NCBI GenBank assembly: GCA_026015185.1
Contig: JAOZGX010000104.1
Location: 1 to 34,912 of the forward strand
Source: Candidatus Bathyarchaeota archaeon
GTDB taxonomy: Archaea > Thermoproteota > Bathyarchaeia > 40CM-2-53-6 > RBG-13-38-9
Direction: 5' to 3'
Length of the DNA: 34,912 nt
In this document: piece by piece, positions 13,700 through 34,912 of the stretch
Numbering within the stretch: the first letter of the stretch is position 1
Layout: each line of letters starts with the position of its first letter
Position numbers and translations under genes: made by a program
Notes under the pieces: generated by a model
Database searches by the model: none
Seen by the model: the letters and a program-made list of their open reading frames with translations, nothing else
What the model was told of the DNA's origin: nothing

Positions 13700-13701
13700 C
13701 A

Positions 13702-15411
13702 TTAAACCTCCGCATTGGCTTCAATTTTTTCTGGAATATTCAGATAATCTTCTCCTATTACATAGTTGCTCATTCTGACTGTATAGTGATCTTCAAACAT
13801 ATCCCTAATATTCTCAAGCATGCTACTTTCCAAATCTTTTGAAATATTACTCTTGGCCCAATACGTTCTCCCATCTATGCATTCCAGAATCTCTCCTTTC
13901 TTTGAAACTATCTTTCCGCTTTTTATCGTATAATGTGCATTGCTGAAAGCGCTTTTGAGTTTGGGATAATGCGTAGAAGCGTCCATAGTCGAAGGATCGA
14001 AATCGTATATCGCAACGTCAGCATCAGCTCCAATACCAAGATGGCCTTTATTCTCTAATCCTAAAGCTTTAGCTGTGGCCGCTCTTGTTACAATCGCTAA
14101 TTCAGATAATGTATATTCTCTATCCATTCCGGGTAAGTCTAAACGTCTTTTAGCGCTGTTATTGATCTTAGCGAGGGTTTTCTCTCTGGCTTTTTTACTA
14201 ACTAACCAAGAAATTACTAAGGGATATTTTGTGAAAGGTGCTCCGTTGGGATTATCTGTCGTCATAAAGATTCGCCATGGATCTTTTACCAATAATGCCA
14301 GCTCAAGACCTATTCCCCATTGAATTGCATTGACGTAATTACTTCTTCTATATGTAAACGGCACAATTCCAGATCCTGTCTCGGCTTCAACATCACAATT
14401 TACCCATTTATTTCCCGATAGTTTATGTAAAAAGAACTGGAATGGACCATCAGCAGTCATTGTTGTCGTATCGCCGAAAGCTATCTGGCCTAGGTCTAGT
14501 GTTACATGCTCATGCTTGTTCACATAATCAGCTATTTCCGGTGCGCCAGAACTCAAATTCAGCCAAGAACTGCCCTTGAACCCTGTAAATTGTGTATGAG
14601 TGATGTGAATTATCGGCTTGTCTCCTGAATATAAATTGCTTACAGAATCCATAGTTTCGATAGTTGTTTGATAGTTTCCTGGAACGCCTAGATTATTTGT
14701 GTGAACATGAATCGTATGAGGAAGATTTAGCATTTTATTGGCCTTGCATAAACCAACAACGATTTCTCTTGGAGTGATACCAAAATTTGGAACTTCATCC
14801 TCAAGATTGGTTATAAAATTTCCCCAACCCCAAGCCTCAACTCCTCCTGGATCGACTATCTTAATTGCATATCCTCTAGTAGCTTCAAGCATCCACGAAA
14901 CATAAGCAGCGCATTCTTCTAATTTATTCTCCTTTAATAGTTCCATGATAAACCAGTTGTTGCCCAGAAGAGTGTAACATGCTTTATCTAAAATTGGAAT
15001 TTCATTCAACTCTTCATGAGTATGTCTTGCTTTCAAGGGTGGAGCAGCTGCTTCTATTACAGTAGTGTATCCCAGTGTAGAGTAACGATAGCCAGTGGCG
15101 AATGTAGATGGAATTGAATGCCCTACTCCTGATCTTTTTATTTTTGTTTTATATTCTACGTCCTTCTCATGGTCCTCTGGTCTTAAAATTCTCCCTGAAT
15201 TTACTTTGGAACCAGCAATATGTGAATGAATATCCACACCACCTGGCATGACTATCTTTCTAGAAGCATCCAGAACACGAGCTTCTTTTGAGACTTTATC
15301 GACTATTTTATCATCCTTGATGGAGATATCCATCTTTTCTCCATCAATATTATTAATGGGATCGAAAACTATACCATTTTTAATTAAAAGTTCAGATGTC
15401 AAAAATCTCAC
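13702..15411 (-). CDS. fwdA: Formylmethanofuran dehydrogenase subunit A
   Basis: FwdA is the amidohydrolase-like subunit that condenses formate, made from CO2 in FwdB, with methanofuran. The 569-residue protein has the dinuclear zinc motif D-x-H-x-H at residues 60-64 (VDIHSHIAGSK), a candidate carboxylated lysine at 184 in YAIKIVDPGG, the HVHTNNLGVPGN and HITHTQFTGFKG histidine clusters, and a catalytic aspartate in MTTDNPNGAPF. All active-site groups known from the Methanothermobacter enzyme therefore appear present. It starts at GTG 15411, overlapping the fwdB stop by four bases (GTGA), so the two genes are translationally coupled. Length is normal for the family. Confidence 0.96.
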   Translation of the reverse strand: MRFLTSELLIKNGIVFDPINNIDGEKMDISIKDDKIVDKVSKEARVLDASRKIVMPGGVDIHSHIAGSKVNSGRILRPEDHEKDVEYKTKIKRSGVGHSIPSTFATGYRYSTLGYTTVIEAAAPPLKARHTHEELNEIPILDKACYTLLGNNWFIMELLKENKLEECAAYVSWMLEATRGYAIKIVDPGGVEAWGWGNFITNLEDEVPNFGITPREIVVGLCKANKMLNLPHTIHVHTNNLGVPGNYQTTIETMDSVSNLYSGDKPIIHITHTQFTGFKGSSWLNLSSGAPEIADYVNKHEHVTLDLGQIAFGDTTTMTADGPFQFFLHKLSGNKWVNCDVEAETGSGIVPFTYRRSNYVNAIQWGIGLELALLVKDPWRIFMTTDNPNGAPFTKYPLVISWLVSKKAREKTLAKINNSAKRRLDLPGMDREYTLSELAIVTRAATAKALGLENKGHLGIGADADVAIYDFDPSTMDASTHYPKLKSAFSNAHYTIKSGKIVSKKGEILECIDGRTYWAKSNISKDLESSMLENIRDMFEDHYTVRMSNYVIGEDYLNIPEKIEANAEV

Positions 15412-16709
15412 TTTCTAATCTTTTTTACTCTCTTGAGTAACTCTTGAAGGATCTCAACGTCTGAAATAATATCATTAGGTGGATCGATGAACTTTCTTGC
15501 CTCAAGCACCACACCATCCATCCGATATATACTTCCTTCAGTTTCGATACCAACGTGAGCTGAAGGTATTACTACTTCGGAACAAAGTGTTGTTGGTGTT
15601 ACATGAGGATCTATAGTTATTAATGGGATCTTTGCCAGATTACGAGCTGCTTGATTTGGAAAGTTTGATATGGGATCTGAGGCTACAACCAAAGCTGCAT
15701 CGCATTCATCTCGTATCAATATATCTACTGCTGAAGTATCACCAGGATTGTAGAGTGGAAAGCCTTTGCTTAAATCCACTGCGAAAGGGTATCCAGTCTG
15801 CCAAGCTGTAACTTGATTTGCTCCTGCGACGTTGAAATGTCCACGCATTGGCATTATAAGGAATTTGGTACGTTTGTTCAATTCTCTAACAAGCGAAAGA
15901 GCCATATCGATATTTCTACTCTTACCTGAGCTCATGGTTATACCTAAGCCGAAAAAGATTATTCCGAATTCACAATTGACCATTATGTCCGCTAAATTCT
16001 CTATCTCTTCCAATAGTACACCTGCAACTTTGTCCTGTTCTATCTCAAGATCCTTTACTGCAGCCGTTAGAGCTGAAAGCAACTCATAATCTTTGTTGGG
16101 TTCAACTTTAATGAAGGAATCTGAGATCTTTGCTGTATCTGTCTTTCTAACATCTACAGTGATAACATTTCTATCTTTTCTTGTTGCTCTGAATCTTCCT
16201 TTACTGAGAGCTGAATATCTCATCATATGATTGGGATGAGCATGAACGGGATTGGCTCCCCAATAAATTATCAAATCGGCTCTATGCTTTACTTCACCTA
16301 ATGTGCATGTTGATTCTCCAACATCCTGTATTCCTATAATGCCTGGACCATGACAAGTACCGGTAGTATTATCTATAACTCCTCCGATGTAATCCGCTAA
16401 TGCTACCCCAAGCTCAATAGCTTCACAACTGGTTAGACTCCAACCATACAAAATTGGGTACTTTGCATTAGCAAGAATGGCAGCAGCCTTATCAATAGCT
16501 TCCGAAAAGGGTGCTTTTGATAATTTATCTCCTTTTCTCACCATCGGAAAATTATTTCTCTCTTTGTTAAAATTCATTAGTTTGCCTAATGACATTGCAC
16601 ACGCATTTTTTGCACGGCTTATATTCCCATCCTTGATTTCTATCTCTAAGTTATCGCAACAACAACCGCAAACTGTACAGATAATATCCTCAAAAATTTT
16701 TGAACTCAT
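15408..16709 (-). CDS. fwdB: Formylmethanofuran dehydrogenase subunit B (Mo/W catalytic subunit)
   Basis: FwdB carries the molybdopterin active site that reduces CO2 to formate. The 433-residue protein begins with a cysteine cluster CTVCGCCCDN (residues 11-20) that holds a 4Fe-4S cluster. The metal ligand is Cys119 in GTCHGPG, encoded by TGT; some methanogens use selenocysteine here, but this organism does not. YWGANPVHAHPNHM and VDPHVTPT are typical pterin-binding stretches. The gene lies 6 bases after fwdD and overlaps fwdA. No FwdE, FwdF or FwdG polyferredoxin gene is nearby, so the electron-delivery subunits must be elsewhere. The cysteine does not settle whether Mo or W is used. Confidence 0.95.
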   Translation of the reverse strand: MSSKIFEDIICTVCGCCCDNLEIEIKDGNISRAKNACAMSLGKLMNFNKERNNFPMVRKGDKLSKAPFSEAIDKAAAILANAKYPILYGWSLTSCEAIELGVALADYIGGVIDNTTGTCHGPGIIGIQDVGESTCTLGEVKHRADLIIYWGANPVHAHPNHMMRYSALSKGRFRATRKDRNVITVDVRKTDTAKISDSFIKVEPNKDYELLSALTAAVKDLEIEQDKVAGVLLEEIENLADIMVNCEFGIIFFGLGITMSSGKSRNIDMALSLVRELNKRTKFLIMPMRGHFNVAGANQVTAWQTGYPFAVDLSKGFPLYNPGDTSAVDILIRDECDAALVVASDPISNFPNQAARNLAKIPLITIDPHVTPTTLCSEVVIPSAHVGIETEGSIYRMDGVVLEARKFIDPPNDIISDVEILQELLKRVKKIRK

Positions 16710-16715
16710 GAGCAG

Positions 16716-17117
16716 TCATTTACTTCGAATTATTTCAACAATTTCCTCTATTGTTAGAACTTTTTCCTTCGTCGCAGCCGAAATAGTAGCATTAATTCCT
16801 TTGAAAGTCGGCATACCTGTACTATGTGTCTTGGGATCGACTAAGAATTCAGCCCATGGACCATATGGCATGAATGCCATGCCTTTCTCTAAAGCTTGTG
16901 TTCCTAATGAAGCTTTGACAACTACGCTCCCAAAATTAGTAATGATTTTGACATTTTGTCCTTTTTCGATACCTAAAACATTCAAATCATCTTGATTTAA
17001 TTCACAACATGCAACGTTATTTAGATAATCATCTGAGAGTTTTCCTTGTTCCTTAAGTCGACCCTGAATCAAACTTCTTCCAGTTATCAGATTGACTTTA
17101 AGTAATTTGGATGTCAT
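16716..17117 (-). CDS. fwdD: Formylmethanofuran dehydrogenase subunit D
   Basis: FwdD is the small subunit with the molybdopterin-dinucleotide-binding barrel that complements FwdB; in some organisms the two are fused. This 133-residue protein shows the usual NLITGRSLIQGR start, a CELNQDDLNVLGIEKGQNVKI barrel segment, and the family signature MPYGPWAEFLVDPKTHSTGMPTFKG. It lies second in the operon, 24 bases after mtd and 6 before fwdB. The separate-gene arrangement with FwdB is typical of archaeal Fwd/Fmd loci. Length and motifs are normal. Confidence 0.93.
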   Translation of the reverse strand: MTSKLLKVNLITGRSLIQGRLKEQGKLSDDYLNNVACCELNQDDLNVLGIEKGQNVKIITNFGSVVVKASLGTQALEKGMAFMPYGPWAEFLVDPKTHSTGMPTFKGINATISAATKEKVLTIEEIVEIIRSK

Positions 17118-17141
17118 TTTGATACCTTTTGAAGGCTAAGA

Positions 17142-17975
17142 TTATTTCGGTTTTTCCATTAACTTCCTCTTTTCAGCTCTAGTTCCATCTTTAGAGTGTG
17201 GATTCCTGAACACTGCATCGTTGCTTTTTTCAATTTCTCTAGCTTCGTCAGCGAGCTTTGCTGCTGTACGTATTAATTCATGTGCAGTGGCCACAGTAGC
17301 GGTGTATTGTTCCCAATCTTTTTGCTTGAAACAACCTTCAACTGAAAGTTTACCTACCTTCTCAGCCATTTCAAATGCAGCAGCAGCTTTTGCTTTTGCA
17401 TATGGATTTTGGAAGTTTGCGGCTGAAACACTGACCTCGCTATTTACAACAATTTTTGGTAAGTTTATAGTTTTACCCTTTTTGATCGACTCAACTAAAG
17501 CGTCTATCTCATTCATTAGAATATTAAAAACTCCTGTAATCGAAAGAACTCGGATAACATCTGCATTAAACAAGCTCATCTCTATAGTATCCAAGAATTC
17601 TCTTCGAGCGCCTATCATCGCATCAGATTCTACAATAATATATCCCATGCCAAGCTCTTCTATCTTCTCTAGAGCTCTCTTAGCTGGGCTATCAGATACA
17701 ACCACAGCGGGAATCCCCTTTTCTTTGAATTTTTCCATGGCCTTCATTGGTGCTGGTAGAGAAGCATTTGGAGTGGTTAATATTATTAAATTGGGTTTTG
17801 GTTCAACAACTTTCTCAGCTATATCACTCGCATGTTTAGGAGTTAACTTCGAGCCAGATCCAAATACTAGTACATCGATGTCTTCTCTCTCAGCTCTCTC
17901 ATCAAGAATGAATTCTATTAAAGGGGCTGAACCGATATTACCCACTTTTGCAAATCCTATGAGTACTTGTTCCAT
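17142..17975 (-). CDS. mtd: F420-dependent methylene-tetrahydromethanopterin dehydrogenase
   Basis: Mtd reduces methenyl-H4MPT to methylene-H4MPT with reduced coenzyme F420 (EC 1.5.98.1). The 277-residue protein matches the family end to end: GFAKVGNIGSAPLIEFILDERA at the start, a central GMGYIIVESDAMIGARREFLD block (the most conserved Mtd region), MSLFNADVIRVLSITG, and a C-terminal helical part with CFKQKDWEQYTATVATAHE. Its presence implies that the organism makes and reduces F420. It is the first gene of the minus-strand operon; GGGGATT lies 8 bases upstream of the ATG and a TATA box at 18013-18025. It is divergent from ftr, so both may share regulation. Confidence 0.95.
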   Translation of the reverse strand: MEQVLIGFAKVGNIGSAPLIEFILDERAEREDIDVLVFGSGSKLTPKHASDIAEKVVEPKPNLIILTTPNASLPAPMKAMEKFKEKGIPAVVVSDSPAKRALEKIEELGMGYIIVESDAMIGARREFLDTIEMSLFNADVIRVLSITGVFNILMNEIDALVESIKKGKTINLPKIVVNSEVSVSAANFQNPYAKAKAAAAFEMAEKVGKLSVEGCFKQKDWEQYTATVATAHELIRTAAKLADEAREIEKSNDAVFRNPHSKDGTRAEKRKLMEKPK

Positions 17976-18012
17976 TTTTTTTTAATCCCCATGATTCTAA
18001 AAACAATATTGG

Positions 18013-18025
18013 TTTTAAATAAAAT
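18013..18025 (-). promoter_or_regulatory. TATA box of the mtd-fwdDBAC-mch operon
   Basis: On the minus strand this reads TTTTATTTAAAAC, an archaeal TATA box 38 to 50 bases before the mtd start. A transcription start near 17993 would leave a leader of about 18 bases containing GGGGATT. Confidence 0.5.
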
Positions 18026-18088
18026 GATATTGCAAGATAAAAAAGAAGTGGTCTTAGAAAATCGTAAAATTAAACAAGTCGATATTTC

Positions 18089-18098
18089 TTTAAATTTA
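18089..18098 (+). promoter_or_regulatory. TATA box of ftr
   Basis: TTTAAATTTA lies 36-45 bases before the ftr ATG. A start of transcription about 25 bases downstream (near 18118) would coincide with the GAGAGGAG ribosome-binding site at 18118-18125, giving a very short leader. Confidence 0.45.
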
Positions 18099-18133
18099 AG
18101 CTTGATTCAATTGATTTGAGAGGAGAAAAAAGA

Positions 18134-19021
18134 ATGGCTGATGTGGAAATTGAAGATACTTTTGCTGAAGCTTTCCCAATGATTGCTGGAAGAGTTTTGA
18201 TCACAGCAGAAAACGATGATTGGGCAATGAATTCTGCTAGAAGTGCAACAGGTTTTGCTTCATCGATCATTATGTCCCCAGCAGAAGCGGGAATAGAAGG
18301 CCCAAAAGCTTCACCTAAGAAAACACCTGATGGCAGACCAGGTGTGTATATTCAAGTTTATCATAGAACTGGAAGAGAATTTAAAGTGCAGATGCTCACT
18401 CGTATTGGTCAATGTATTCTAACATGTCCCACAACAGCAGCTTTTGATGCAATTCCAAAGGCCAAGAAAAGGCTCAAATTGGGTAGAATGATCCGATATT
18501 TTGGAGATGGTTTCCAAAAAAAGGATCAAATGGCTGGCAGAGATATCTGGAGAATACCAGTCATGGATGGGGAATTCATAATTGAAGATAAATTCGGAGT
18601 TAAAAGAGCTGTTGCAGGAGGCAATTTATTGATAATGGCAAAAGATCAAATGATTGGTCTTGAAGCAGCTGAAAAAGCTGTACATGCAATTAAGGGTTTA
18701 GAAGGTGTTATCACGCCTTTTCCTGGAGGAATATGTAGATCAGGTTCAAAATTAGGTTCGATGAAGTATAAACTACTAGCCTCAACAAATCATCCTTTCT
18801 GTCCTATACTAAAGAATTCAATAGAAGATTCAATGTTGCCGGCTGGAACTGGTGCTGTTTATGAAATCGTAATAAACGGATTGACTTTAAATCTAGTTAA
18901 ACGTGCGATGAAGGTTGGTTTAAAGGCGGCAATGGACGTAGAAGGGGTAATAAAAATTACAGCAGTCAATTTCGGTGGTAAGCTAGGTCCGTTCAAAATA
19001 AATTTGAAAGAGCTTCTCTGA
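18134..19021 (+). CDS. ftr: Formylmethanofuran:tetrahydromethanopterin formyltransferase
   Basis: Ftr moves the formyl group from formylmethanofuran to N5 of H4MPT (EC 2.3.1.101), the step between Fwd and Mch. The 295-residue protein shows the standard start DVEIEDTFAEAFPMIAGRVLITA, the TGFASSIIMSPAEAGIEG block, RIGQCILTCPTTAAFD, and the C-terminal PAGTGAVYEIVINGLTL. The frame is open from TTG 18116, but GAGGAG at 18120-18125 is spaced correctly for ATG 18134, which also gives the usual N-terminus. It is the only methyl-branch gene here on the plus strand, divergent from mtd. Length is normal. Confidence 0.96.
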   Translation: MADVEIEDTFAEAFPMIAGRVLITAENDDWAMNSARSATGFASSIIMSPAEAGIEGPKASPKKTPDGRPGVYIQVYHRTGREFKVQMLTRIGQCILTCPTTAAFDAIPKAKKRLKLGRMIRYFGDGFQKKDQMAGRDIWRIPVMDGEFIIEDKFGVKRAVAGGNLLIMAKDQMIGLEAAEKAVHAIKGLEGVITPFPGGICRSGSKLGSMKYKLLASTNHPFCPILKNSIEDSMLPAGTGAVYEIVINGLTLNLVKRAMKVGLKAAMDVEGVIKITAVNFGGKLGPFKINLKELL

Positions 19022-24512: not shown

Positions 24513-24608
24513 TCATATATTAAGAGAATCTTAAAATCTTTTATTTTTACATTATCATGATTTATAGAATCTAGATGTAAAAAGCACTTTTTTCTAGGGA
24601 TCTGATTG

Positions 24609-25346
24609 ATGAGTAGCATTGTCTCTATGGGCAGAGGGGGTACGGGAAAGACCAGTTTTATCGCTTTATTAACCAAGTATTTTATCGAAAAGGATGAGAC
24701 TCCTTTACTTCTTGTTGATGCTGATCCAGATCAAAGTTTAGCTGAAATGGTTGGAGCTAAGTTAGAAAAGACGATCTCAGAAATTTTGTATGAATTTCTA
24801 GAAGAAGGGGGTAATATAACAGAAGCATCCCCTCAAGAAAGGTTGGAACCTAGAGTATTAGAAAGTTTGTACGAAGGTGAACAATTCGATCTTATGGCAA
24901 TAGGAACCAAATGGAAAGAGGGTTGCTATTGTCTACCAAATGATCTATTAAAGAAGATATTTCCGACTCTAACAAGAAATTATAAGCACGCATTGATTGA
25001 TTCTCCTGCCGGCTTAGAGCATTTGAATAGAAGGATAACGGCTGAGGTGGATTACATATTCGATATTCTCAACCCTTCTAAAAAAGCATTTGACCATCTC
25101 AAAAGAGCCTTTAAGATAATTGAAGAACTGAAAATAAAATACGGAAATCTGTATTTAGTAGGTGGATATAATTTTCCAGAGAGATTATCAAAGCGTGCTG
25201 AAGAAACTGGATTTACATATTTAGGTAAAATTGATTATGATAAGGATTTAGAATCTTATGTTTTGGAGGGGGAGTCTCTTCTTGATTTGCCACTCACTTC
25301 TACAGCCTATATTTCGTTAAAAGAGATTATGAAGAAGATTACCTAA
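24609..25346 (+). CDS. cooC: CooC-type nickel-insertion ATPase for CODH (first copy)
   Basis: A 245-residue P-loop ATPase of the MinD/ParA/CooC group that helps load nickel into the C-cluster of carbon monoxide dehydrogenase. It has a deviant Walker A, GRGGTGKT at residues 8-15, a switch region VDADPDQSLAEMVGAKL, a CxC metal motif (Cys106 and Cys108 in GCYCLPND) and a Walker B-like ALIDSPAGLEHLNRR. CxC is the residue pair by which CooC dimers bind Ni. The frame is also open from TTG 24606, but ATG 24609 is adjacent and more likely. It precedes cdhA by 156 bases but has a T-rich stretch (25382-25392) after its stop, so it may be a separate transcript. A second CooC lies after cdhE. Confidence 0.83.
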   Translation: MSSIVSMGRGGTGKTSFIALLTKYFIEKDETPLLLVDADPDQSLAEMVGAKLEKTISEILYEFLEEGGNITEASPQERLEPRVLESLYEGEQFDLMAIGTKWKEGCYCLPNDLLKKIFPTLTRNYKHALIDSPAGLEHLNRRITAEVDYIFDILNPSKKAFDHLKRAFKIIEELKIKYGNLYLVGGYNFPERLSKRAEETGFTYLGKIDYDKDLESYVLEGESLLDLPLTSTAYISLKEIMKKIT

Positions 25347-25450: not shown

Positions 25451-25540
25451 ATGAAAGATTTTTTAGTAGCTGAAAAAAATAAGGGTTCTCAATATCGGAT
25501 CCTTGTGTTACGCGGTGGCGTTATTATTGGCCAGACGTAA
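25451..25540 (+). other. 29-codon leader ORF overlapping the cdhA start
   Basis: ATG 25451 opens a short frame (MKDFLVAEKNKGSQYRILVL..., stop TAA at 25538-25540) that runs through all candidate cdhA starts in a different frame. No good ribosome-binding site is visible before it. It may be untranslated chance, a coupling leader, or the original N-terminus of a frameshifted cdhA. Confidence that it is a real gene is low. Confidence 0.2.
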
Positions 25541-27878
25541 GAAAGTTGAATTAGACATAAAAGAATTGAATTCTAGCATCGGTGTAATGAAAGATCTAAA
25601 GCTTTCAATAGGCGGCGTCCTTGAGAAAGCTAAAAAAGAAGAGCTTGGGCCAACATCTTGCCCAAGTGTTACTGATCTTAGAGATTGGGATTTTAAGCTT
25701 CTCCAAAGATATAAGCCCTTCTATATGCCTTTCTGCGACCTTTGCTGCCTTTGTACTTTTGGCAAATGTGACTTAAGCGATGGTAAGAGAGGAGCTTGTG
25801 GACTTGATATGGAGGCCCAACAATCTAGGATCGTATTAATTGCAAGCTGTATAGGTGCTGCCACACACATAAGCCACGCTAGGCATTTAATTGATGAATT
25901 AATTCAGAAATATGGTCGGAAAAATCCAATTGATGTTGGAGGTACAAATGTGGATCTGAATGCTCCTGTAACTCAATTAATAACAGGAATTGAACCTAAA
26001 ACCTTGAGCGACTTGGAAGATATTTTGGACTATCTTGAAACAGAAATTAACCACTTGCTTTCAGCAACTCATACTGGACAAGAAGGTAGCAATATTGATT
26101 TCGAGTCAAAAGTGCTGCATGCAGGAATGATGGATCAAGCCGGATTGGAGATTGCAGATATTGCACAGATTTCAACTTATGGTTTTCCAAAAGGAGATCC
26201 TGAAGCTCCACTTGCAGACATAGGTCTTGGAGTGGTTAATGCGACCAAACCTGTGATCATGATAGTTGGCCATAATGTAACTCCTTCGATTGGAATTATA
26301 GATTATCTTACAGAAAACAACCTCTATGATGAAGTTGAGGTTTGTGGTCTATGTTGTACTTCTCATGATATCACAAGATATAGCCCAAAAGCAAAAATTG
26401 TTGGGCCTATTTCATGGCAACTTCGATTTATTCGAAGTGGAATTCCTGATGTAATTGTAGTAGATGAGCAGTGTATTCGAGCCGACTCATTAGATGAAGC
26501 TAAGAAGATAGGGGCTCCTATAATTGCATCAAGCCCAAAGAACTGCCTAGGCTTAAAGGATAGAACTAAGGATTCCGTGGATGAAATTGTTGCTGATTTG
26601 GTGAATGGGAAAGTATCAGGTGTGTTAATTCTAGATTCAGATAAAGTAGGGGAAGTAGCCGTACGAACGGTAATGGAGATCGCTCCAAAAAGAAGTAAAT
26701 TCAAAACCATTCCTAATTTGGATGAATTGATTAAAAATGCAAAGAAATGTACGCAGTGTGATGAATGCAGAAGAGCTTGTCCAAATGATATGAAAATTTC
26801 AGAGGCAATAAACGATGCTGCAAAAGGTGAACTAACTAAATTAATAAAACTCTATGAGGAATGCATCGGTTGTTCGCGTTGCGAAAATGCTTGCCCTAAC
26901 GAGCTACCAATCCACAGCTTTATTGTGAAAGCAGCTGAGAAAAAATTGAAAGAAGAAAAGTTCAAGATACGTACGGGCAGGGGAGCCATACAAGATGTGG
27001 AGATAAGAAGGGTCGGAGGACCAATTGTTCTTGGAGAGATACCCGGTGTTGTAGCTCATGTTGGATGTGCTAACTACCCGAAAGGTGGAAAAGAAGTAGC
27101 TGAGATGATAGAAGAATTTGCAAAGCGTAGGTATATAGTAGTTACCTCTGGATGTGCTGCTATGTCAGCGGCTATGCATAAGAATGAAGATGGTAAGACG
27201 CCTTATGAAAACTTTTCAGGTGATTTCGATGCTGGTGGTTTATTAAATGTCGGCTCATGCGTATCTAATGCTCACATAGCCGGTGCTGCCATTAAGATTG
27301 CAAGTATTTTTGCAAAACGGAAATTAAATGCAAATTATGAAGAAATTGCTGACTATGTACTTAATCGTGTTGGAGCAGTTGGCATCTCATGGGGAGCCAT
27401 GTCCCAAAAAGCAGCCTCAATAGCGAGTGGGTTTTGGAGGCTTGGCGTTCCAGTCATAGTTGGTCCCCATGGTTCTAAATACAGGAGAATGTTACTTGGA
27501 AGAAAGGACAAAGAAGAAGATTGGTATGTCTATGATGCTCGCACAGGAGAGCGTGTTTATGTAGGTCCAGCACCGGAGCATCTGTTTTATGCAGCTGAGA
27601 CAAAAGAAGAAGCTATGGTAATGACAGCCAAACTATGTATGCGCCCAAATGATACGACCAAGGGTAGGGCAATTAAACTTTCTAATTATATAGATCTTCA
27701 CAAAAGATACTACGGAAAACTCCCTGACGACATACACCTTTACGTACGTCGATTATCAGATGTACCGATTACTATGAAAGATGAAATTGTTCGTATCCTT
27801 GATAAAAAAGACTGGAAAGAGAAAATAATTCCAGATCCAACATTATTACCAAGAATGATTAGAAAAAAAGGAAATTAA
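25503..27878 (+). CDS. cdhA: CODH/ACS complex alpha subunit (carbon monoxide dehydrogenase)
   Basis: CdhA reduces CO2 to CO, or the reverse, at a Ni-Fe-S C-cluster. The protein of about 790 residues has the N-terminal cluster FCDLCCLCTFGKCDL, which holds the B and D clusters, then HIDE-like helical parts with ESKVLHAGMMDQAG and VCGLCCTSHDITRY. Two ferredoxin-type motifs (CTQCDECRRACPND and CIGCSRCENACPNE) are typical of the archaeal form only. C-cluster cysteines appear in VGCANYPKGG, TSGCAAMSAA and NVGSCVSNAH. No ATG start is available. Candidates are TTG 25503, GTG 25515 and TTG 25527; GGTGG lies 8 bases before the last, which I judge most likely and which removes an odd hydrophobic tip. 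cdhB follows one base after the stop. Confidence 0.95.
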   Translation: MCYAVALLLARRKKVELDIKELNSSIGVMKDLKLSIGGVLEKAKKEELGPTSCPSVTDLRDWDFKLLQRYKPFYMPFCDLCCLCTFGKCDLSDGKRGACGLDMEAQQSRIVLIASCIGAATHISHARHLIDELIQKYGRKNPIDVGGTNVDLNAPVTQLITGIEPKTLSDLEDILDYLETEINHLLSATHTGQEGSNIDFESKVLHAGMMDQAGLEIADIAQISTYGFPKGDPEAPLADIGLGVVNATKPVIMIVGHNVTPSIGIIDYLTENNLYDEVEVCGLCCTSHDITRYSPKAKIVGPISWQLRFIRSGIPDVIVVDEQCIRADSLDEAKKIGAPIIASSPKNCLGLKDRTKDSVDEIVADLVNGKVSGVLILDSDKVGEVAVRTVMEIAPKRSKFKTIPNLDELIKNAKKCTQCDECRRACPNDMKISEAINDAAKGELTKLIKLYEECIGCSRCENACPNELPIHSFIVKAAEKKLKEEKFKIRTGRGAIQDVEIRRVGGPIVLGEIPGVVAHVGCANYPKGGKEVAEMIEEFAKRRYIVVTSGCAAMSAAMHKNEDGKTPYENFSGDFDAGGLLNVGSCVSNAHIAGAAIKIASIFAKRKLNANYEEIADYVLNRVGAVGISWGAMSQKAASIASGFWRLGVPVIVGPHGSKYRRMLLGRKDKEEDWYVYDARTGERVYVGPAPEHLFYAAETKEEAMVMTAKLCMRPNDTTKGRAIKLSNYIDLHKRYYGKLPDDIHLYVRRLSDVPITMKDEIVRILDKKDWKEKIIPDPTLLPRMIRKKGN

Positions 27879-27879
27879 T

Positions 27880-28413
27880 ATGAGCTATACACCTTGGCAT
27901 ACTGCAGAGGTACCCGGTCCAAAGAAAGGAATTCCATTATTAAGACCAGAAACGCTTCTTTCGATTTTAAAAAAAGCTAATCATCCAATCTTAATAGTCG
28001 GGCACAGAGCTGTAGAAATTGAAGTGGGTAATAGAAAAATTATAGATTATATTATAGATTTTGTCGAAAATAGTAGGATGCCGGTAATAGCAACAGCCCA
28101 TACAATAAATGATTTTATCAAAAGAGATTTTAATACCGCCATATCGATGTCAGCTATGGATGTCGCAAATAGACTCAGCGATCCCAACTGGAAAGGTCTG
28201 GATGGAACAGGCCAATATGATCTGGCGTTATTCGTGGGGATTCCTTATCAAATGCAATGGTTAATATTATCAGGACTTAAGAATTCTAAACTTAGAACAA
28301 TCAATATAGATGGGTACTTCCAACCTAATGCTTCATGGTCTACTCCAAATTTGTCGCCCTTGGAATTGAAAGAGTTCTTTGATGCTTTATTAGAAAAATT
28401 TGGTGAGAAGTAA
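27880..28413 (+). CDS. cdhB: CODH/ACS complex epsilon subunit
   Basis: CdhB is the small subunit that binds CdhA to form the alpha2-epsilon2 CO dehydrogenase and may help with electron transfer to FAD or ferredoxin. The 177-residue protein has a Rossmann-like, DHS-type fold. Recognisable segments are TPWHTAEVPGPKKGIPLLRPE at the start (the usual CdhB opening), PILIVGHRAVEIE, MPVIATAHTINDFIKRD and DLALFVGIPYQMQWLILSGLK. It starts at ATG 27880, one base after the cdhA stop, and ends just before cdhC. Length is typical (about 170). Confidence 0.93.
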   Translation: MSYTPWHTAEVPGPKKGIPLLRPETLLSILKKANHPILIVGHRAVEIEVGNRKIIDYIIDFVENSRMPVIATAHTINDFIKRDFNTAISMSAMDVANRLSDPNWKGLDGTGQYDLALFVGIPYQMQWLILSGLKNSKLRTINIDGYFQPNASWSTPNLSPLELKEFFDALLEKFGEK

Positions 28414-28414
28414 T

Positions 28415-29797
28415 ATGTCAATGTTCAAAGACATTCCAGTTGATGTAGGAGTTGTATATGAAGGAGAACGAATTAGAAAGTCCGATCTGTATGTTGAACT
28501 TGGTGGACCTAAAATAGAGAGGAAGTTTGAGCTAGTACGAGTTAAAAAAATGAACGAAGTTAAAGATGAAGAGATTAAGATATTCGGTCCAGACATCAAA
28601 GAAATAAAAGAAGGAAGCAGCATCCCCTTCGGGATCTATATTGAGGTTGCTGGTAGAGAGTTAGAAGATGAACTAGAAGGTGTAATCGAAAGGCGAATAC
28701 ATGAATATGCGAATTTCGTTGAAGGATTTATGCACTTGAATCAACGTTATGATATGTGGTGTAGATTAAGTAAGAAATCAGTTGAGAAGGGTTTAAACTC
28801 ATTTAAGCTCATAGGAAAAATATTAATACGATTATTCAAAACCGAACTACCTTTCATCAGAGCTATGCAGGTAACCTTCATTACAGACCCTAAAAAGGTT
28901 AATGAGATGTGGGACGACGCTGTGAAGATATATGAGGCAAGAGATGCAAGAGCAAGAAAGCTCACGGATAATGATGTGAACGAATTCTATGGTTGTGATT
29001 TATGTCAATCATTTGCACCAACTCACATATGTACAATAACACCACAAAGATACTCAAATTGTGGAGCAATAAGTTGGTTCGACGGCAGAGCTGCTTCAAG
29101 AATAGATCCAAAAGGCCCTATATACAAGATCAACAAAGGCGAGTGTTTGGATCCGACTAAAGGAGAATACACGGGAATAAATGAAAATGCGAAAAAGAAG
29201 TCTTTGGGAGAAATAGAACGCGTTTGGCTTTATACAGCTTTTGGGTATCCACATACTTCTTGTGGATGTTTTGAGGGAATATCTTTCTATATTCCTGAAG
29301 TGGATGGATTAGGAATAGTACATAGAGACTTTAGTGGTAAAACTGTAAATGGACTCCCATTCTCCACAATGGCTGATTCTGCAGCTGGCGGAAGACAAGT
29401 AGACGGTTTCCATGGTCTTTCTATTGAATATATGAGATCGAGGAAGTTTCTCCAAGTCGATGGGGGATGGAATAGAATTGTATGGATGCCGAAGACTATT
29501 AAAGAGCGTCTTAAAGATTTCATTCCCAAAGATATCTATGATAAAATCCCAGCAGAGGATGATGTTAAGAATATCGAAGGTTTGAAGGATTTCCTAAAGT
29601 CTCATGAACATCCAATAATTGAGCGATGGAAAGAAATGCCTGTTGAAGCTGAAATCCCAGAAGTTGAAGAGATCTCCGTAGAAACCTCAACGCCTTTGGT
29701 TGGTATGCCGATTTCAAGTGGCGGATACAAGATTATTTTGAAAGGTGCGAAGATTCAAGCGAAAAAGATTATCATCAAAGCCCCTAAGAAAAAGTAG
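28415..29797 (+). CDS. cdhC: CODH/ACS complex beta subunit (acetyl-CoA synthase)
   Basis: CdhC makes acetyl-CoA from CO, a methyl group and CoA at its Ni-Ni-4Fe4S A-cluster. The 460-residue protein is the short archaeal form without the N-terminal CODH-contact domain of bacterial ACS. A-cluster cysteines are in FYGCDLCQSFAPTHIC (Cys194, 197, 206) with NCGAISWFDGRAASRID after it, and in SCGCFEG (Cys283 and 285), the C-G-C pair that bridges the two nickels. The C-terminal tail GGYKIILKGAKIQAKKIIIK is usual for CdhC. The frame is open from TTG 28400, inside cdhB, but GGTGAG at 28402-28407 is well placed for ATG 28415. All ligands look intact. Confidence 0.95.
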   Translation: MSMFKDIPVDVGVVYEGERIRKSDLYVELGGPKIERKFELVRVKKMNEVKDEEIKIFGPDIKEIKEGSSIPFGIYIEVAGRELEDELEGVIERRIHEYANFVEGFMHLNQRYDMWCRLSKKSVEKGLNSFKLIGKILIRLFKTELPFIRAMQVTFITDPKKVNEMWDDAVKIYEARDARARKLTDNDVNEFYGCDLCQSFAPTHICTITPQRYSNCGAISWFDGRAASRIDPKGPIYKINKGECLDPTKGEYTGINENAKKKSLGEIERVWLYTAFGYPHTSCGCFEGISFYIPEVDGLGIVHRDFSGKTVNGLPFSTMADSAAGGRQVDGFHGLSIEYMRSRKFLQVDGGWNRIVWMPKTIKERLKDFIPKDIYDKIPAEDDVKNIEGLKDFLKSHEHPIIERWKEMPVEAEIPEVEEISVETSTPLVGMPISSGGYKIILKGAKIQAKKIIIKAPKKK

Positions 29798-29808: not shown

Positions 29809-31017
29809 TTGGTAGAGAAGGAGAAAAAGAAGTCAGAAGATAGCATCAACATAGATATCCTAGATACTTTGAATAAATTCGAAGAATTAGAACTTGAAGA
29901 TGTAGAACTCGAAGTGGGTGAGCTAGAACTCTGGATTCAACCAGGTGCTGGAAAAGTTACAGTGGCCCCAAGAGTTGAGCCTGAAGAAAAACCAACAAGA
30001 ATGCTAGAGGTAGAATTCAAACCTCCAATCATGACTTATCCAGGAAAAATATTGGAAGTTAAACTTGGAGCCACGAAAAAAGAAGGTGGAAGTCGAAGCA
30101 AATCACTTGTAATTGGTGGAGAGACTACTCTACCATTCTATAATTTTGAGTCAAAAATGATTCACAAACCGGTTATTTCTTTAGATGTTTTCGATACCAA
30201 AATTCCATTAGCTAAACCTGTTAAAAAAGAATTCGAAGAAGTTCTGGAAGACCCTTCTGCATGGGCAAAATTTTCAGTCGATAAATTCGGAGCAGAAATG
30301 GTAAATCTTCATCTTATAAGTATAGATCCTTTAATAAAAGATACCAAGCCCAAAGATGCAGCTAAAACCGTTGAGAATGTACTCCAAGCGGTTGATGTTC
30401 CAATAGCTGTTGGTGGATGTGGGGATCCAGAGAAGGATCTAAAAGTTTTTGATAAGATTGCAGAAGTGGCGGAAGGGGAAAACATTCTCATAAACTCTGT
30501 GACTCTAGACATGAATGTAGAAAAAATGGCTGATATTGTTAATGACCACGGCCATACAATTATTGCATTCACTTCGATGGATCTAGAAGATGCTAAAGAA
30601 TTGAATAGAAAGTTGTTCAGTTTTCTTCCACGAAATAAAGTCGTTATTGATACAACGACTGCTGCTTTAGGTTATGGTCTTGATTACGCATTCACAGTAA
30701 TGGAACGAACTCGTATAGCAGGCCTAATGGGAGATGCGCAAATACAAAATCCGCTCTCGTCTGGAACTACTAATGCTTGGGCTGCTAGAGAAGCATGGAT
30801 GAAGATGGATCCTAAATGGGGTCCAAGAGAATTACGTGGACCTATCTGGGAAACTGTTACTGCATTAACTCTTCTATTAGCCGGTGTAGATTATTTCATG
30901 ATGATGCATCCAAGTGCTGTAAAAACGGTAAAAAATGTCATTGAAAACCTTACGAGTCATTCCAAAATTCTGAAGCCTGAAATCGCGTCAAATTGGGTAA
31001 CTAAAAATTTGGGATGA
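29809..31017 (+). CDS. cdhD: CODH/ACS complex delta subunit (corrinoid Fe-S protein small subunit)
   Basis: CdhD pairs with CdhE as the corrinoid Fe-S protein that carries the methyl group to CdhC. The 402-residue protein has a charged N-terminal tail (residues 1-70, rich in glutamate and lysine), then a TIM-barrel part starting near ISLDVFDTKIPLAKPV. Typical blocks are VGGCGDPEKD, GENILINSVTLDMNVEKMADIV, VIDTTTAALGYGLDYAFTVMERTRIAGLMGD, and PLSSGTTNAWAAREAWM. The only start codon near the front of the frame is TTG 29809. The ribosome-binding site is weak, suggesting translational coupling to cdhC 11 bases upstream. cdhE follows 3 bases after the stop. Confidence 0.94.
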   Translation: MVEKEKKKSEDSINIDILDTLNKFEELELEDVELEVGELELWIQPGAGKVTVAPRVEPEEKPTRMLEVEFKPPIMTYPGKILEVKLGATKKEGGSRSKSLVIGGETTLPFYNFESKMIHKPVISLDVFDTKIPLAKPVKKEFEEVLEDPSAWAKFSVDKFGAEMVNLHLISIDPLIKDTKPKDAAKTVENVLQAVDVPIAVGGCGDPEKDLKVFDKIAEVAEGENILINSVTLDMNVEKMADIVNDHGHTIIAFTSMDLEDAKELNRKLFSFLPRNKVVIDTTTAALGYGLDYAFTVMERTRIAGLMGDAQIQNPLSSGTTNAWAAREAWMKMDPKWGPRELRGPIWETVTALTLLLAGVDYFMMMHPSAVKTVKNVIENLTSHSKILKPEIASNWVTKNLG

Positions 31018-31020: not shown

Positions 31021-32463
31021 ATGACAGAAAGAGAAGTCAAGAAGGTTAGTATCAAGGAGATTAGTCCATTAGATGTATACAAACTTTTACCCAGAACTAA
31101 TTGTAAAATATGTGGTGAAGAAAATTGTATGGCCTTCGCTACAAAAGTAGTAAATCGTGAGCTCGTTTTAGAAAAATGTACTCCATTAATAGATGAGGAT
31201 AAGTACAAGAAGAATTATCAGATCCTTTGGGAGATGCTCAAACCACCGGTCAAAGCAGTCAAAATAGGCGAGGGTGAGAAGGTTGTTACTATTGGTGGAG
31301 AATTCGTGATGTACCGCCACGAATTTACTTACTACAATCCAACAGCAATAGCTATTGATATCCCAGATGATCTTAATAATGAAGATATCTCTACAAGAGC
31401 TAACCAAATTCAAGATTTTATATACCAATATATTGGTCGCGATCTAAAACTCGATTTAGTAGCGATAAGATCGGTTTCAAACAAACCTGAAAAATTTGCT
31501 ACAGCTGTAAAAGAAGTTGTAAAAGCCGTAAAACTTCCCATAGTGCTATGTTCTCTCAATCCAAAAGTTATGAAAGCAGGTCTTGAAGCTTGTAAGGGAA
31601 AGAGACCTCTTATTTTTGCAGCTACAAGAGAGAACTGGCATGAGATGGCTGATTTAGCTCTAACATATGATTGTCCTTTAGTTGCATCTGCCCCTAATGA
31701 TCTTAAAGTTATCAAGTCACTCACAAAAACTTTAATTGGATATGGAATTGAGGACCTAGTACTCGATCCTGGAACTTTTTCTGATAAGGGACTTGATATT
31801 ACTATCAACAATTTAACAATGCTTCGTCGTTTATCTTGTAAGATAGGGGATGAATTGTTAGGTTTTCCATTGATTGGAACTCCAATTATTGCATGGACAA
31901 ATGATAAAGAATCGCCTGATAGCAAAATGTGGGATGAGTCTTATCTTGCTTCAATGCTTGTAACAAGATATACTGATATCTTAGTTTTGCATAGTCTTGA
32001 AGGGTGGGCATTATTACCATTAATTATCTTAAGAGATAATTTGTATACAGATCCTAGAAAACCTATATCAGTAAAAGCTGGATTAAGAACCTTTGGAAAA
32101 CCAAATGAGAACTCACCAGTGCTTATGACTTCAAACTTTGCGCTTACATATTTTACAGTTGCTTCAGACATAGAGAAGATTGATTGTTATCTGATCGTTA
32201 TTGATACTGAAGGCAATTCTGTTGAAAGTGCTGTTGCGGGGAGGAAACTTACATCAGATAAGGTTGGAGAAGCCATCAAATCAACGGGCATAGAAACGAA
32301 AGTCAAACATAAAAAGTTGATAATTCCTGGAAGAGCTGCCAGAATAAGTGGTGAGATCGAGGAGGCAAGTGGATGGGATGTCATTGTAGGATCTTTAGAT
32401 TCTTCTGGCATTCCAGCTTTTCTTCACGAGAAATGGCAGGAGAAAAAAGTAGCTCAGAAATAG
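31021..32463 (+). CDS. cdhE: CODH/ACS complex gamma subunit (corrinoid Fe-S protein large subunit)
   Basis: CdhE accepts the methyl group from methyl-H4MPT onto its cobamide. The 480-residue protein starts with the 4Fe-4S domain, with Cys28, 31, 36 and 53 in NCKICGEENCMAF...EKCTPL, the low-potential cluster that reactivates Co(II). A TIM barrel follows (TFYNPTAIAID-like HEFTYYNPTAIAIDIPDD, DLVLDPGTFSDKGLDITINNL), and then the B12-binding domain at the C-terminus (SSFALTYFTVASDIE-like NFALTYFTVASDIE, LIIPGRAARISGEIEEASGWDVIVG). All parts appear present and of usual length. It ends the core cdhABCDE block; cooC starts 21 bases later. Confidence 0.95.
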   Translation: MTEREVKKVSIKEISPLDVYKLLPRTNCKICGEENCMAFATKVVNRELVLEKCTPLIDEDKYKKNYQILWEMLKPPVKAVKIGEGEKVVTIGGEFVMYRHEFTYYNPTAIAIDIPDDLNNEDISTRANQIQDFIYQYIGRDLKLDLVAIRSVSNKPEKFATAVKEVVKAVKLPIVLCSLNPKVMKAGLEACKGKRPLIFAATRENWHEMADLALTYDCPLVASAPNDLKVIKSLTKTLIGYGIEDLVLDPGTFSDKGLDITINNLTMLRRLSCKIGDELLGFPLIGTPIIAWTNDKESPDSKMWDESYLASMLVTRYTDILVLHSLEGWALLPLIILRDNLYTDPRKPISVKAGLRTFGKPNENSPVLMTSNFALTYFTVASDIEKIDCYLIVIDTEGNSVESAVAGRKLTSDKVGEAIKSTGIETKVKHKKLIIPGRAARISGEIEEASGWDVIVGSLDSSGIPAFLHEKWQEKKVAQK

Positions 32464-32484: not shown

Positions 32485-33261
32485 ATGAAGATTGCTATTA
32501 CTGGAAAAGGTGGCGTTGGTAAAACATTTATCACTGGCACATTAGCACGTTTGCTAGCTCGTGATGGATTCGATGTCTTGGCAATAGATATCGATCCAGC
32601 CATGAATCTCTCATATGCTCTGGGCATAAAAGCCGAGATGGCATCCAAAATAATCCCCATCAGCGAAAATCAGGAACTCATTGAGGAGAGAGTCGGAACC
32701 GGACCAGTGTATAGTCTTACACCCAATGTTAAAGATATTGCAGAGAAATACGGAGTTAAAGGACCGGAGGGTGTTCTACTTCTTGTAATGGGAACTGTAC
32801 GTTCAGGTGGATCCGGATGTATGTGTAATGCAAATTCGCTAATTCATGCATTAATACGACATTTGATGTTGGAACGAAAAGATGTAGTTATCATGGATAC
32901 AGAAGCAGGTTTAGAACACTTAGGTCGAGCTACAGTTAAGGGATTTGAGATTTTATTGTGTGTTGTTGAGCCTGGAAAACAATCATTAGCAACTGCCAAA
33001 AAGATCAGTGATTTAGCAAAAGACCTAGGTATTAAGAAAGTATTTGCTATAGCAAATAAAATTATGAAAGAGGAGGATATGAACTTCATAGAGGAGAATC
33101 TCAAAACATATGGTATTAAAATAATGGGCTCTGTACCTTTTGATGAAGAAATTCTTAAAGCAGATAATATGGCTATAGCTCCAATAGATTTTGCATCGAA
33201 TTCGAATGCTGTAAAGGCAATAAAGGGATTCAAAGATTTCATTGAAAAAGAGTTTCAATAA
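32485..33261 (+). CDS. cooC: CooC-type nickel-insertion ATPase for CODH/ACS (second copy)
   Basis: A 258-residue P-loop ATPase of the CooC/MinD group. It has GKGGVGKT at residues 7-14 (the deviant Walker A with signature lysine 8), AIDIDPAMNLSYALGI, the Ni-binding CxC motif (Cys112 and Cys114 in SGCMCNAN) and a MDTEAGLEHLGR segment. It is closer to classical CooC than the first copy at 24609, which has GRGGTGKT with arginine in place of the signature lysine. It sits immediately after cdhE, the position expected for a factor that loads nickel into CdhA or CdhC. ATG 32485 has GAGGATAG upstream. Confidence 0.9.
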   Translation: MKIAITGKGGVGKTFITGTLARLLARDGFDVLAIDIDPAMNLSYALGIKAEMASKIIPISENQELIEERVGTGPVYSLTPNVKDIAEKYGVKGPEGVLLLVMGTVRSGGSGCMCNANSLIHALIRHLMLERKDVVIMDTEAGLEHLGRATVKGFEILLCVVEPGKQSLATAKKISDLAKDLGIKKVFAIANKIMKEEDMNFIEENLKTYGIKIMGSVPFDEEILKADNMAIAPIDFASNSNAVKAIKGFKDFIEKEFQ

Positions 33262-33297: not shown

Positions 33298-33999
33298 TTG
33301 CTCGATCAACAGAAGATGCTTATATGCATCTTAATTCAAGGTTGGTATGGGCAGAGAATCGTAGAAAATTTAAGAGAAAAAAGCCCTAAAAATTGGGAAT
33401 TTTATATTCATAAATTCCCAAATAAACTCCCCATAATTATAGATAAGTTAGATAAATTCATGCCCAAACAGTTCCCGAAATGCGATCTTTTAATTTCCTT
33501 AGGGGAAGACCCAGCTATTATTTCACTTTTACCTGATTTAGTAAAGAAATCTGGAGCTAAAGCGATTGTTGCTCCTGTTGATAACTCAGATTGGAATCCA
33601 CCCGGATTGAGGAAACAGGTTTCGAATGAATTGAAAAAGCTTGGAGTTGCCTTTTCATTTCCAAAACCGTTTTGTTCTATGAATTCAAATTCAAAAAATG
33701 AAATTATTGACGGTTTTGCTGAAAGGTTTGGAGCTCCTAACTTAAAAATTACTTCAGAAAAAGGCATTATTAAAGAAATCAAAGTATTACGAGGTGCACC
33801 ATGTGGTGCAACACATTTTGTTACTGAAAAGCTTAAAGGTTCAAGTGATAACGAAGCCAAGAGTAAGGCAAGCCTTCTTGTTCAAACTTATCCTTGCCTT
33901 GCATCGAGAACCAAAGATCAAGAGTGCGGTGAACATTTAATTCATGTAGCAGCATACATAATTAAAGGAGCTGTTCATAAGGCCTTGACTAATTCGTAA
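33298..33999 (+). CDS. DUF166 family protein (first copy)
   Basis: A 233-residue protein of the archaeal DUF166 family, found in methanogens and relatives; function is not established. The N-terminal half is Rossmann-like (MLICILIQGWYGQRIVENL, then CDLLISLGEDPAIISLLPDLV and AKAIVAPVD). The C-terminal half has Cys126, Cys169 (RGAPCGATH), Cys200 (YPCLAS) and Cys210 (QECGEH), which could hold an Fe-S cluster or metal. Starts are TTG 33298, with GGTGAT 9 bases upstream, or ATG 33316. It lies between cooC and the corrinoid-protein gene on the same strand, so an accessory role in CODH/ACS or corrinoid maturation is likely by context only. A paralogue starts at 34680. Confidence 0.75.
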   Translation: MLDQQKMLICILIQGWYGQRIVENLREKSPKNWEFYIHKFPNKLPIIIDKLDKFMPKQFPKCDLLISLGEDPAIISLLPDLVKKSGAKAIVAPVDNSDWNPPGLRKQVSNELKKLGVAFSFPKPFCSMNSNSKNEIIDGFAERFGAPNLKITSEKGIIKEIKVLRGAPCGATHFVTEKLKGSSDNEAKSKASLLVQTYPCLASRTKDQECGEHLIHVAAYIIKGAVHKALTNS

Positions 34000-34027
34000 A
34001 TACTAAGACTATGAAGTGAATGAAAAT

Positions 34028-34675
34028 ATGTCTAGTAAGAGACAGATCAAAGAAATTCTAGAGGCTTTACTTGATTTTAAGGGAAAGAAGATTGAAAATT
34101 ATTGTTCACAAAAAATAAACGACGGTTTACAACCCAACGATATTTTCAAGGAGCTTTCTTTAGGTTTGGATGAGATAGGAAGAGGCTTTGAAGATGAAGA
34201 ATTTCAAAGATATTTCACATCTGACTTGATAGTTTCTGGTAGAAATATGAAGAAAGCAATAGAGATGCTCAAATCCTATTTTAAAAAGACGGAAAAACCA
34301 ATAGGTAAAGCTGTAATTGGAACTGTAAAAGGAGATATTCATGACATTGGTAAAATCATATTTGCAATAATGCTTGAATCGAATGGTTTTGAGGTAACTG
34401 ACCTTGGTGTTGATGTTGATAAGGCCACTTTTGTAGAGGTATTAAGAAAGAATAAACCAAAAATCCTCGGTCTATCTGCTCTCTTGTCATCGACAGTTCC
34501 TTATATGAAGGAAGTTGTTGAGGAATTGAAGAATCAGAATCTGCGAGAGCAAATTAAGATCATCATTGGTGGTGGTGCGGTAACTGAGGAATTCGCTAAA
34601 GAAATCGACGCTGATGCTTATGGTAAAGATAGTATCGACGGATTGAAGAAATGTCTATCCTTTGTTGGAGCATGA
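34028..34675 (+). CDS. Methyltransferase-type corrinoid protein (MtaC/MtbC/MttC-like)
   Basis: A 215-residue cobalamin-binding protein of the type that shuttles methyl groups between two methyltransferases. Residues 1-90 form the helical cap domain (B12-binding-2; EILEALLDFKGKKIENYCSQ, GLDEIGRGFEDEEF). Residues 92-215 form the Rossmann-like B12 domain with D-x-H-x-x-G at 103-108 (GTVKGDIHDIGK), where His105 ligates cobalt, then a LGVDVDKATFVEVL helix, LSALLSSTVPYMKEVV and IIGGGAVTEEFAKEIDADAYGKD. The frame is open from GTG 34016, but ATG 34028 has GTGA 8 bases upstream. No MtxB-type methyltransferase is in the window, so the methyl source (methanol, methylamine, methoxy-aromatic or other) is unknown. 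It lies between two DUF166 genes. Confidence 0.9.
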   Translation: MSSKRQIKEILEALLDFKGKKIENYCSQKINDGLQPNDIFKELSLGLDEIGRGFEDEEFQRYFTSDLIVSGRNMKKAIEMLKSYFKKTEKPIGKAVIGTVKGDIHDIGKIIFAIMLESNGFEVTDLGVDVDKATFVEVLRKNKPKILGLSALLSSTVPYMKEVVEELKNQNLREQIKIIIGGGAVTEEFAKEIDADAYGKDSIDGLKKCLSFVGA

Positions 34676-34679
34676 ACAA

Positions 34680-34912
34680 TTGAGGATCTATGTAATTTAT
34701 TGTGGTCCTTTTGGGGAACAGATGATCAACAATATCGCATCGACAGGTTTTGCCGATAAGATCGTTAATGCATATGAGCTCAAACCTGAAACTATAAAAG
34801 AAGAACATGCTTCTGAATCCAATATCTGGTCAAAATTATGGGAAGAACCTGAAAAATACTTGCCGAAGGATTTACCAATAATTGAATGTGATCTTTTACT
34901 GGTGTTGGGAAT
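34680..34912 (+). CDS. DUF166 family protein (second copy), truncated by window end
   Basis: A frame open from TTG 34680 to the window edge (77 codons seen). GGAG at 34667-34670 is correctly placed as ribosome-binding site. The sequence RIYVIYCGPFGEQMINNIAS aligns with MLICILIQGWYGQRIVENLR of the first DUF166 protein, and LPIIECDLLLVLG with FPKCDLLISLG, so it is a paralogue of the gene at 33298. It starts 4 bases after the corrinoid-protein stop, suggesting co-translation. The cysteine-rich C-terminal half lies outside the window. Confidence 0.68.
   Translation, partial: MRIYVIYCGPFGEQMINNIASTGFADKIVNAYELKPETIKEEHASESNIWSKLWEEPEKYLPKDLPIIECDLLLVLG

Follow-up and report, generated by a model that had tools for sequence, protein, structure and literature searches.

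The conserved unit at the end of the CODH/ACS operon of this DNA is formed by a corrinoid protein (corr), one kind of DUF166 protein (DUF166b) and a RACo subtype without the linker domain, and not by a pair of DUF166 proteins. Judging from sequence comparison, we tentatively prefer to regard the three proteins as an accessory corrinoid module, a methyl carrier, of the archaeal CODH/ACS, the enzyme that joins carbon monoxide and a methyl group into acetyl-CoA.

The window, i.e. the whole stretch of DNA analyzed, is one entire contig (G000:C104) of 34,912 bases, from a draft genome of 118 contigs. Open reading frames and Pfam matches placed cooC1, cdhABCDE, cooC2, DUF166a, corr and the 5′ part of DUF166b all on the plus strand (Table 1); the product of cooC1 is presumably a CooC, a name taken from its position and from family knowledge. 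A previous sequence-only reading had described the order cooC, DUF166, corrinoid protein, DUF166 directly after cdhABCDE on one strand, and the order, the strand and the identities were all borne out. Elsewhere in the window, positions 11886-19021 probably hold mch, fwdCABD, mtd and ftr of the tetrahydromethanopterin (H4MPT) methyl branch, named from sequence and order.

Table 1. Genes of the CODH/ACS operon and of its downstream end in the window
Gene	Product	Position	Strand	Basis
cooC1	CooC/MinD-type ATPase upstream of cdhA	24606..25346	+	Pfam AAA_31/CbiA
cdhA	CODH alpha subunit	25503..27878	+	ORF; orthologues in the same order in relatives
cdhB	CODH epsilon subunit	27880..28413	+	ORF; same order in relatives
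cdhC	acetyl-CoA synthase beta subunit	28400..29797	+	PF03598 CdhC at G000:C104:28433-28900, E 1.1e-63
cdhD	small subunit of the corrinoid iron-sulfur protein	29809..31017	+	PF03599
cdhE	large subunit of the corrinoid iron-sulfur protein, with Fe-S domain	31021..32463	+	PF03599, PF04060
cooC2	CooC-type P-loop ATPase	32485..33261	+	Pfam CbiA / Fer4_NifH
DUF166a	cdh-linked DUF166 protein	33298..33999	+	PF02593, E 3.6e-57; separate branch of the DUF166 tree
corr	MtaC/MtgC-type corrinoid protein	34016..34675	+	PF02310, PF02607; cassette clade; PDB 1y80, E 9.2e-39
DUF166b	5′ part, cut by the contig end	34662..34912	+	contig overlap, joined ORF; DUF166b clade with SH-aLRT 99

The part of DUF166b contained in the window matches PF02593 with E 3.6e-5, just below the cut-off, the gene being cut at the contig end. 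Another contig of the same draft (C56) overlaps the end of the window exactly over 147 bp, and the joined DUF166b frame has 320 amino acids, with its continuation on the minus strand of C56 (L004 6799-7656). The join is supported by the relatives, which show the same gene order. Beyond DUF166b, C56 carries a convergent RACo/AcsV-like gene, whose product has a 2Fe-2S domain and ASKHA domains; the 3′ ends of both genes meet, so the plus-strand run ends there. Past the RACo gene (L004 1835-5038), genes similar to nuoE, nuoF and the N-terminal part of nuoG run in the same direction as cdh. Their products are a thioredoxin-like 2Fe-2S protein, a 51K flavin subunit and a 2Fe-2S/4Fe-4S protein, and it is possible that they form an electron-bifurcating or NADH-linked unit.

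Concerning the two DUF166 proteins, both passed the 24.4-bit cut-off of PF02593, with 193.9 bits for DUF166a and 101.2 bits (E 5.5e-29) for the C56 part of DUF166b, and neither of them is DfsP (NF041372), the 200-bit equivalog cut-off of which they missed with 79.2 and 34.4 bits. In addition, DUF166b carries a winged helix at its C terminus and a motif EHxNE...C. The N-terminal pattern that the two proteins were said to share is real (GWYGQR and CDLLISLG in DUF166a, GPFGEQ and CDLLLVLG in DUF166b). The four cysteines noted in the C-terminal half of DUF166a are present too, although only three of them (in PFC, PCG and YPC) are conserved among its relatives. The two share only about 33% of their residues. 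A tree built from 108 DUF166 proteins puts DUF166b into a clade of 30 rows with SH-aLRT 99, and DUF166a into another deep branch. Local duplication can thus be discarded as their origin, and the sequences indicate that they are old, separate subfamilies.

The contiguous order DUF166a–corr–DUF166b was found in four genomes, all from the window's own family (G000, G020, G076 and G123). In the related RBG_13_38_9 genome (G091, L077) DUF166a adjoins DUF166b with no corr gene between them, and in another family (f9) DUF166a lies behind cdhDE on a different contig. DUF166 genes outside the DUF166b clade, including DUF166a, were near cdh in 9 of 78 rows, close relatives being among these, and most have unrelated neighbors, for instance herA-nurA, or a gene of homocysteine biosynthesis in the case of large Methanosarcina-like genomes; as the DUF166 loci were picked by score and not randomly, such neighbor fractions are not rates. 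The DUF166 pair was therefore rejected as a functional unit of general validity, the contiguous sandwich being limited to one family. DUF166a is a separate cdh-linked protein, which in this family stands in the same operon probably by happenstance, outside the conserved core of the module. The proposal that the pair acts on the corrinoid protein was not supported either, since elsewhere DUF166b accompanies corr without DUF166a alongside. DUF166 genes in general do lie mainly away from cdh and corrinoid genes, which is not the case of the DUF166b subfamily.

Two groups of these other loci can be described further. In several Bathyarchaeia, at L053 (8214-11440) and related loci (L040, L044, L055 and L057-L061), the DUF166 gene stands beside a convergent pair encoding about 503 and 350 amino acids, which in L053 matches a HerA-type helicase and NurA. 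The loci L196, L198 and L200 belong to large Methanosarcina-like genomes with a DUF166 gene; in L196 an extra FCxxCGxxCxxCR motif was seen, and DUF166 is preceded there by a gene for homocysteine biosynthesis (HcyBio) and by a ferredoxin-like gene.

A profile search with DUF166b recovered 13 loci in named genomes, from Bathyarchaeota/Hecatellales and Methanoregulaceae/Methanomicrobiales. In the methanogens cdhABCDE is followed by corr and DUF166b, the latter convergent with RACo, and in several of them cooC comes next. Sixteen winged-helix DUF166b genes were available in total; corr is directly upstream in 13 of the 14 with upstream DNA, and 12 of the 16 face a convergent RACo gene at their 3′ end. 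The gap between corr and DUF166b goes from −31 to +84 nt, with overlaps in most cases; overlaps of 4 or 31 nt recur, and that of the window is 14 nt. The corr and RACo proteins of the cassette each form one clade of 18 rows with SH-aLRT 100, from largely the same genomes. Besides the window's family, other families of Bathyarchaeia and the Methanoregulaceae thus share the unit. The idea of a recurrent module for methyl transfer or corrinoid repair is thus sustained as far as DUF166, an MtaC-type corrinoid protein and cdh recur together, in the company of RACo, with the correction that the unit has DUF166b alone.

The association is not uniform. A Halobacteriota group with a short DUF166b has the same protein clades in loose linkage (of 14 loci, five have RACo and three have corr no farther than 8 kb from DUF166b), and in one family (f10) corr and DUF166b lie beside cdh while the only RACo is of the general type; both facts count against a carrier module. 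In one genus (g4), DUF166b stands behind cdh-cooC-DUF166a in one genome and corr faces RACo convergently, alone on separate contigs, in two others, a split pieced together from different incomplete genomes and not seen in one complete genome.

Concerning the RACo proteins, the 17 of the cassette that were tested all have the Fer2, middle and ASKHA C-terminal domains, and none of them has the RACo linker domain (PF17650), versus 14 of 19 other, general-type RACo proteins. The RACo of the window's genome matches the NCBIfam AcsV profile with E 1e-92 and a score of 311, the cut-off being 800. The cobalt-binding Ser398 of Carboxydothermus RACo aligns with Ala331, invariant in the cassette set; this position was discarded as a marker of the substrate because Ala also predominates in the general archaeal RACo set. 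General-type RACo genes were also found near cdh. In G150 one adjoins cdhCDE. In L206 (G525:C85, 220-10431) cdhABCDE is followed by a DUF166 gene of another subfamily and a convergent general-type RACo gene, with no corrinoid protein found; in this arrangement DUF166 may work with RACo and CODH/ACS rather than with corr. A search of open papers on the RACo linker domain, and on DfsP with selenoprotein, gave nothing.

The corr protein consists of a helical domain and a B12-binding domain (Pfam B12-binding 1.9e-23, B12-binding_2 1.9e-7) with the motif GDIHDIG; the D, H and G of DxHxxG are invariant in the alignment. It missed all the curated cut-offs (TIGR02370, 159.4 of 215.3; MtgC, 164.5 of 370; MtaC, 108.6 of 420). 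Its earlier description as MtaC-like is correct as to both domains of the MtaC type, but it is nearer to the MtgC/MtbC/1Y80 type and below every NCBIfam cut-off. No substrate methyltransferase gene was found alongside corr in the cassette. The possibility that corr replaces a degenerate CdhE was also considered, and is argued against by CdhE itself, which covers nearly the whole PF03599 profile and keeps its Fe-S domain.

An AlphaFold model of the DUF166b orthologue in L076 (pLDDT 92.5, pTM 0.89) begins with a Rossmann-like part, continues with a mixed middle region in which the conserved cysteines lie, and closes with a domain of winged-helix order. Known corrinoid methyltransferases are TIM barrels, and DUF166b differs from them in fold. 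No confident relative of the whole protein was found among PDB structures (best E 0.009, TM below 0.35), nor did a PDB sequence search with DUF166 give any match; the lack of a confident relative and the non-TIM-barrel fold are points against a carrier module. For DUF166a, a biliverdin reductase fold was the only match under 0.001, and was rejected because it aligns at 7.3 Å with TM 0.34. Three cysteines are common to most of the DUF166 family, many members having a His beside one of them, while the EHxNE...C stretch is DUF166b's own. Binding of a metal or an Fe-S cluster by DUF166b would be a guess. The second conserved cysteine is Gly or Ser in the DUF166b of the window's family, a further difficulty for a carrier role, and is kept in f9, f10, f14 and the methanogens. 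In L035, L037, L039 and C56 (L004 6799-7656) DUF166b has SPGG or TPSG in the place of TPCG, and the DUF166a of the same family keeps the Cys.

The winged-helix part gave small matches to solved winged helices, mainly shape-based and with E near 0.1, among them a Sulfolobus DNA-binding protein. These weak matches and the secondary structure speak for DUF166b as a sensor or regulator that would read the redox or methyl state of corr and control cdh expression. We consider this decidedly improbable: with a net charge between −2 and +6, and near zero in most cases, the domain lacks a clearly basic character, the short DUF166b of Halobacteriota (about 228 amino acids) has no winged helix, and the dedicated RACo would be left unexplained.

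The link of the cassette to CODH/ACS was considered at the level of the class. In the class sample, the ten genomes with DUF166b all encode CdhC and a RACo, and an association with CdhC exists also for DUF166 taken as a whole (73 of 86 versus 92 of 165; Fisher p 3e-6, kinship uncorrected). The carriers of the module are 10 among 165 CdhC-positive Bathyarchaeia genomes; since many CODH/ACS-bearing Bathyarchaeia do without it, the module is not essential to CODH/ACS, and this scarcity weighs against its being a methyl carrier of the enzyme.

The cassette trees unite the window's family (f1), f9, Methanoregulaceae and G257. In the CdhE tree, by contrast, f9 joins the methanogens, whereas the window's family joins cassette-free Bathyarchaeia. 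The grouping had been defined on the cassette trees ahead of any view of the CdhE tree; when enforced on the small CdhE set of 17 rows, it was rejected (p-AU 0.0007). The cassette therefore neighbors different CODH/ACS lineages. The simplest reading of these trees is that it came to lie beside more than one of them; a cassette that stayed in place while its cdh neighbors were replaced would give the same picture. According to the family, the cassette follows cdhE, diverges from cdhA, converges on cdhE, or is split. From these arrangements and the different ancestry of the operons, its link to cdh has probably been rebuilt more than once. That the genes are neighbors without a functional link, by chance or hitch-hiking, is hardly credible. 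Most DUF166 genes outside the DUF166b clade have neither corrinoid nor cdh neighbors, which would fit such a view, but the cassette shows three corresponding protein clades and overlapping genes, in two phyla and beside cdh operons of different ancestry.

The methyl entry that had also been suggested may be taken as entry from external compounds. Apart from corr, the window's genome encodes about seven MtaC-type corrinoid proteins, several with an MTTB or URO-D family gene next to them, and it has several such methyltransferases; outside methyl groups are thus available to the organism, and a system feeding them into CODH/ACS could be imagined. The cassette itself, nevertheless, has no methyltransferase gene. 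The methyltransferases searched in the carriers were MTTB and the URO-D family only. Among five methanogen carriers MTTB was found in none and a URO-D family protein over the cut-off in two; in three of the methanogens (G251, G253 and G257) no B12-binding protein other than the cassette corr passed the cut-off, so none of these three has a second MtaC-type corrinoid protein. Methylotrophy is therefore unlikely as the purpose of the cassette, and the methyl-entry system, disfavored by the methanogens, is improbable. MtrH is present in 18 of 24 carriers, the gaps falling in incomplete or unscored genomes, so a link to H4MPT is possible.

The carrier module is favored because the clades of its proteins match, its genes travel together and overlap, it lies beside cdh of different ancestry, and no methylotrophic system was found in the methanogen carriers. 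It is favored also by the missing linker domain of the cassette RACo proteins, by CdhC and RACo in all ten DUF166b genomes, by the split in g4, where DUF166b stays behind cdh-cooC and corr with RACo, by MtrH in most carriers, and by the reactivation of the corrinoid iron-sulfur protein by RACo in Carboxydothermus (PMC4934906). If it is right, corr would cycle between Co(I) and methyl-Co(III), carrying methyl groups between the tetrahydromethanopterin branch and CdhDE, with MtrH as a possible route from that branch to corr, and RACo would rescue corr once oxidized to Co(II). DUF166b would be a dedicated partner, docking corr to the CODH/ACS side, and might promote the methyl transfer through its conserved Cys/His site; we infer for it a role either in methyl transfer or in redox repair. 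A bolder, combined reading seems unlikely, in which DUF166b founds a new class of corrinoid-protein methyltransferases or transfer partners outside the TIM barrels and corr is at the same time a second methyl carrier linking the H4MPT branch to CODH/ACS.

Close behind the carrier module, and in itself somewhat unlikely, comes corrinoid repair. RACo, DUF166b and corr would then be a relay that re-reduces Co(II) on CdhDE or delivers cobamide, and corr would be outside the main methyl flux. The best support for it is the general-type RACo beside cdh, with no corr found there, in G150 and, with another DUF166, in G525. A redox hint comes from the conserved cysteines of DUF166, often with an adjacent His, and from the bacterial relative family DfsP, which includes selenoproteins. 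Furthermore, the known substrate of RACo is the corrinoid iron-sulfur protein, which Carboxydothermus RACo reactivates by ATP-dependent reduction of Co(II) (PMC4934906). Against repair, the clade of cassette RACo proteins corresponds to that of corr, and where DUF166b is elsewhere corr and RACo are still together, which points to corr as the RACo substrate; besides, a full MtaC-type corrinoid protein exceeds the needs of an electron relay.

Compared with known systems, the cassette resembles the corrinoid methyltransferase systems (MtaC/MtbC/MtgC with MtxB and RACo/RamA) in having a corrinoid protein with helical and B12 domains and an adjacent ASKHA activase of the RACo family. In contrast to them, it has DUF166b in the neighbor place, no substrate methyltransferase and a CODH/ACS context, and its corr is far under every curated equivalog cut-off. 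A RACo-family gene adjoins CODH/ACS also in the bacterial acs operon, where RACo/AcsV acts on the corrinoid iron-sulfur protein, but here CdhABCDE is archaeal, the RACo is linker-less, and there are an extra corrinoid protein and DUF166b. In Bathy-6, a corrinoid protein is coupled with mtrH, the CoP-MtrH couple (PMC7886697). That couple too is found in Bathyarchaeia with CODH/ACS and has a corrinoid protein of the MtaC type next to which no substrate methyltransferase is encoded, but its partner is mtrH, while the partners in the cassette are DUF166b and RACo, beside cdh. In the open literature (subscription journals lying outside the search) no description of a corr–DUF166b–RACo cassette was found, nor anything on a cdhD/cdhE corrinoid gene cluster, and a whole-word search met DUF166 only in two selenoprotein reviews.

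In the usual view, CODH/ACS receives methyl groups with no corrinoid protein besides its own iron-sulfur one. The presence beside it of a second corrinoid protein with an activator of its own, next to CODH/ACS of different ancestry and also in methanogens where no methylotrophic genes were found, suggests that the Wood-Ljungdahl pathway of archaea has an unrecognized step, either in the transfer of methyl groups or in the upkeep of corrinoids, and the cassette offers the first testable role for one DUF166 subfamily.
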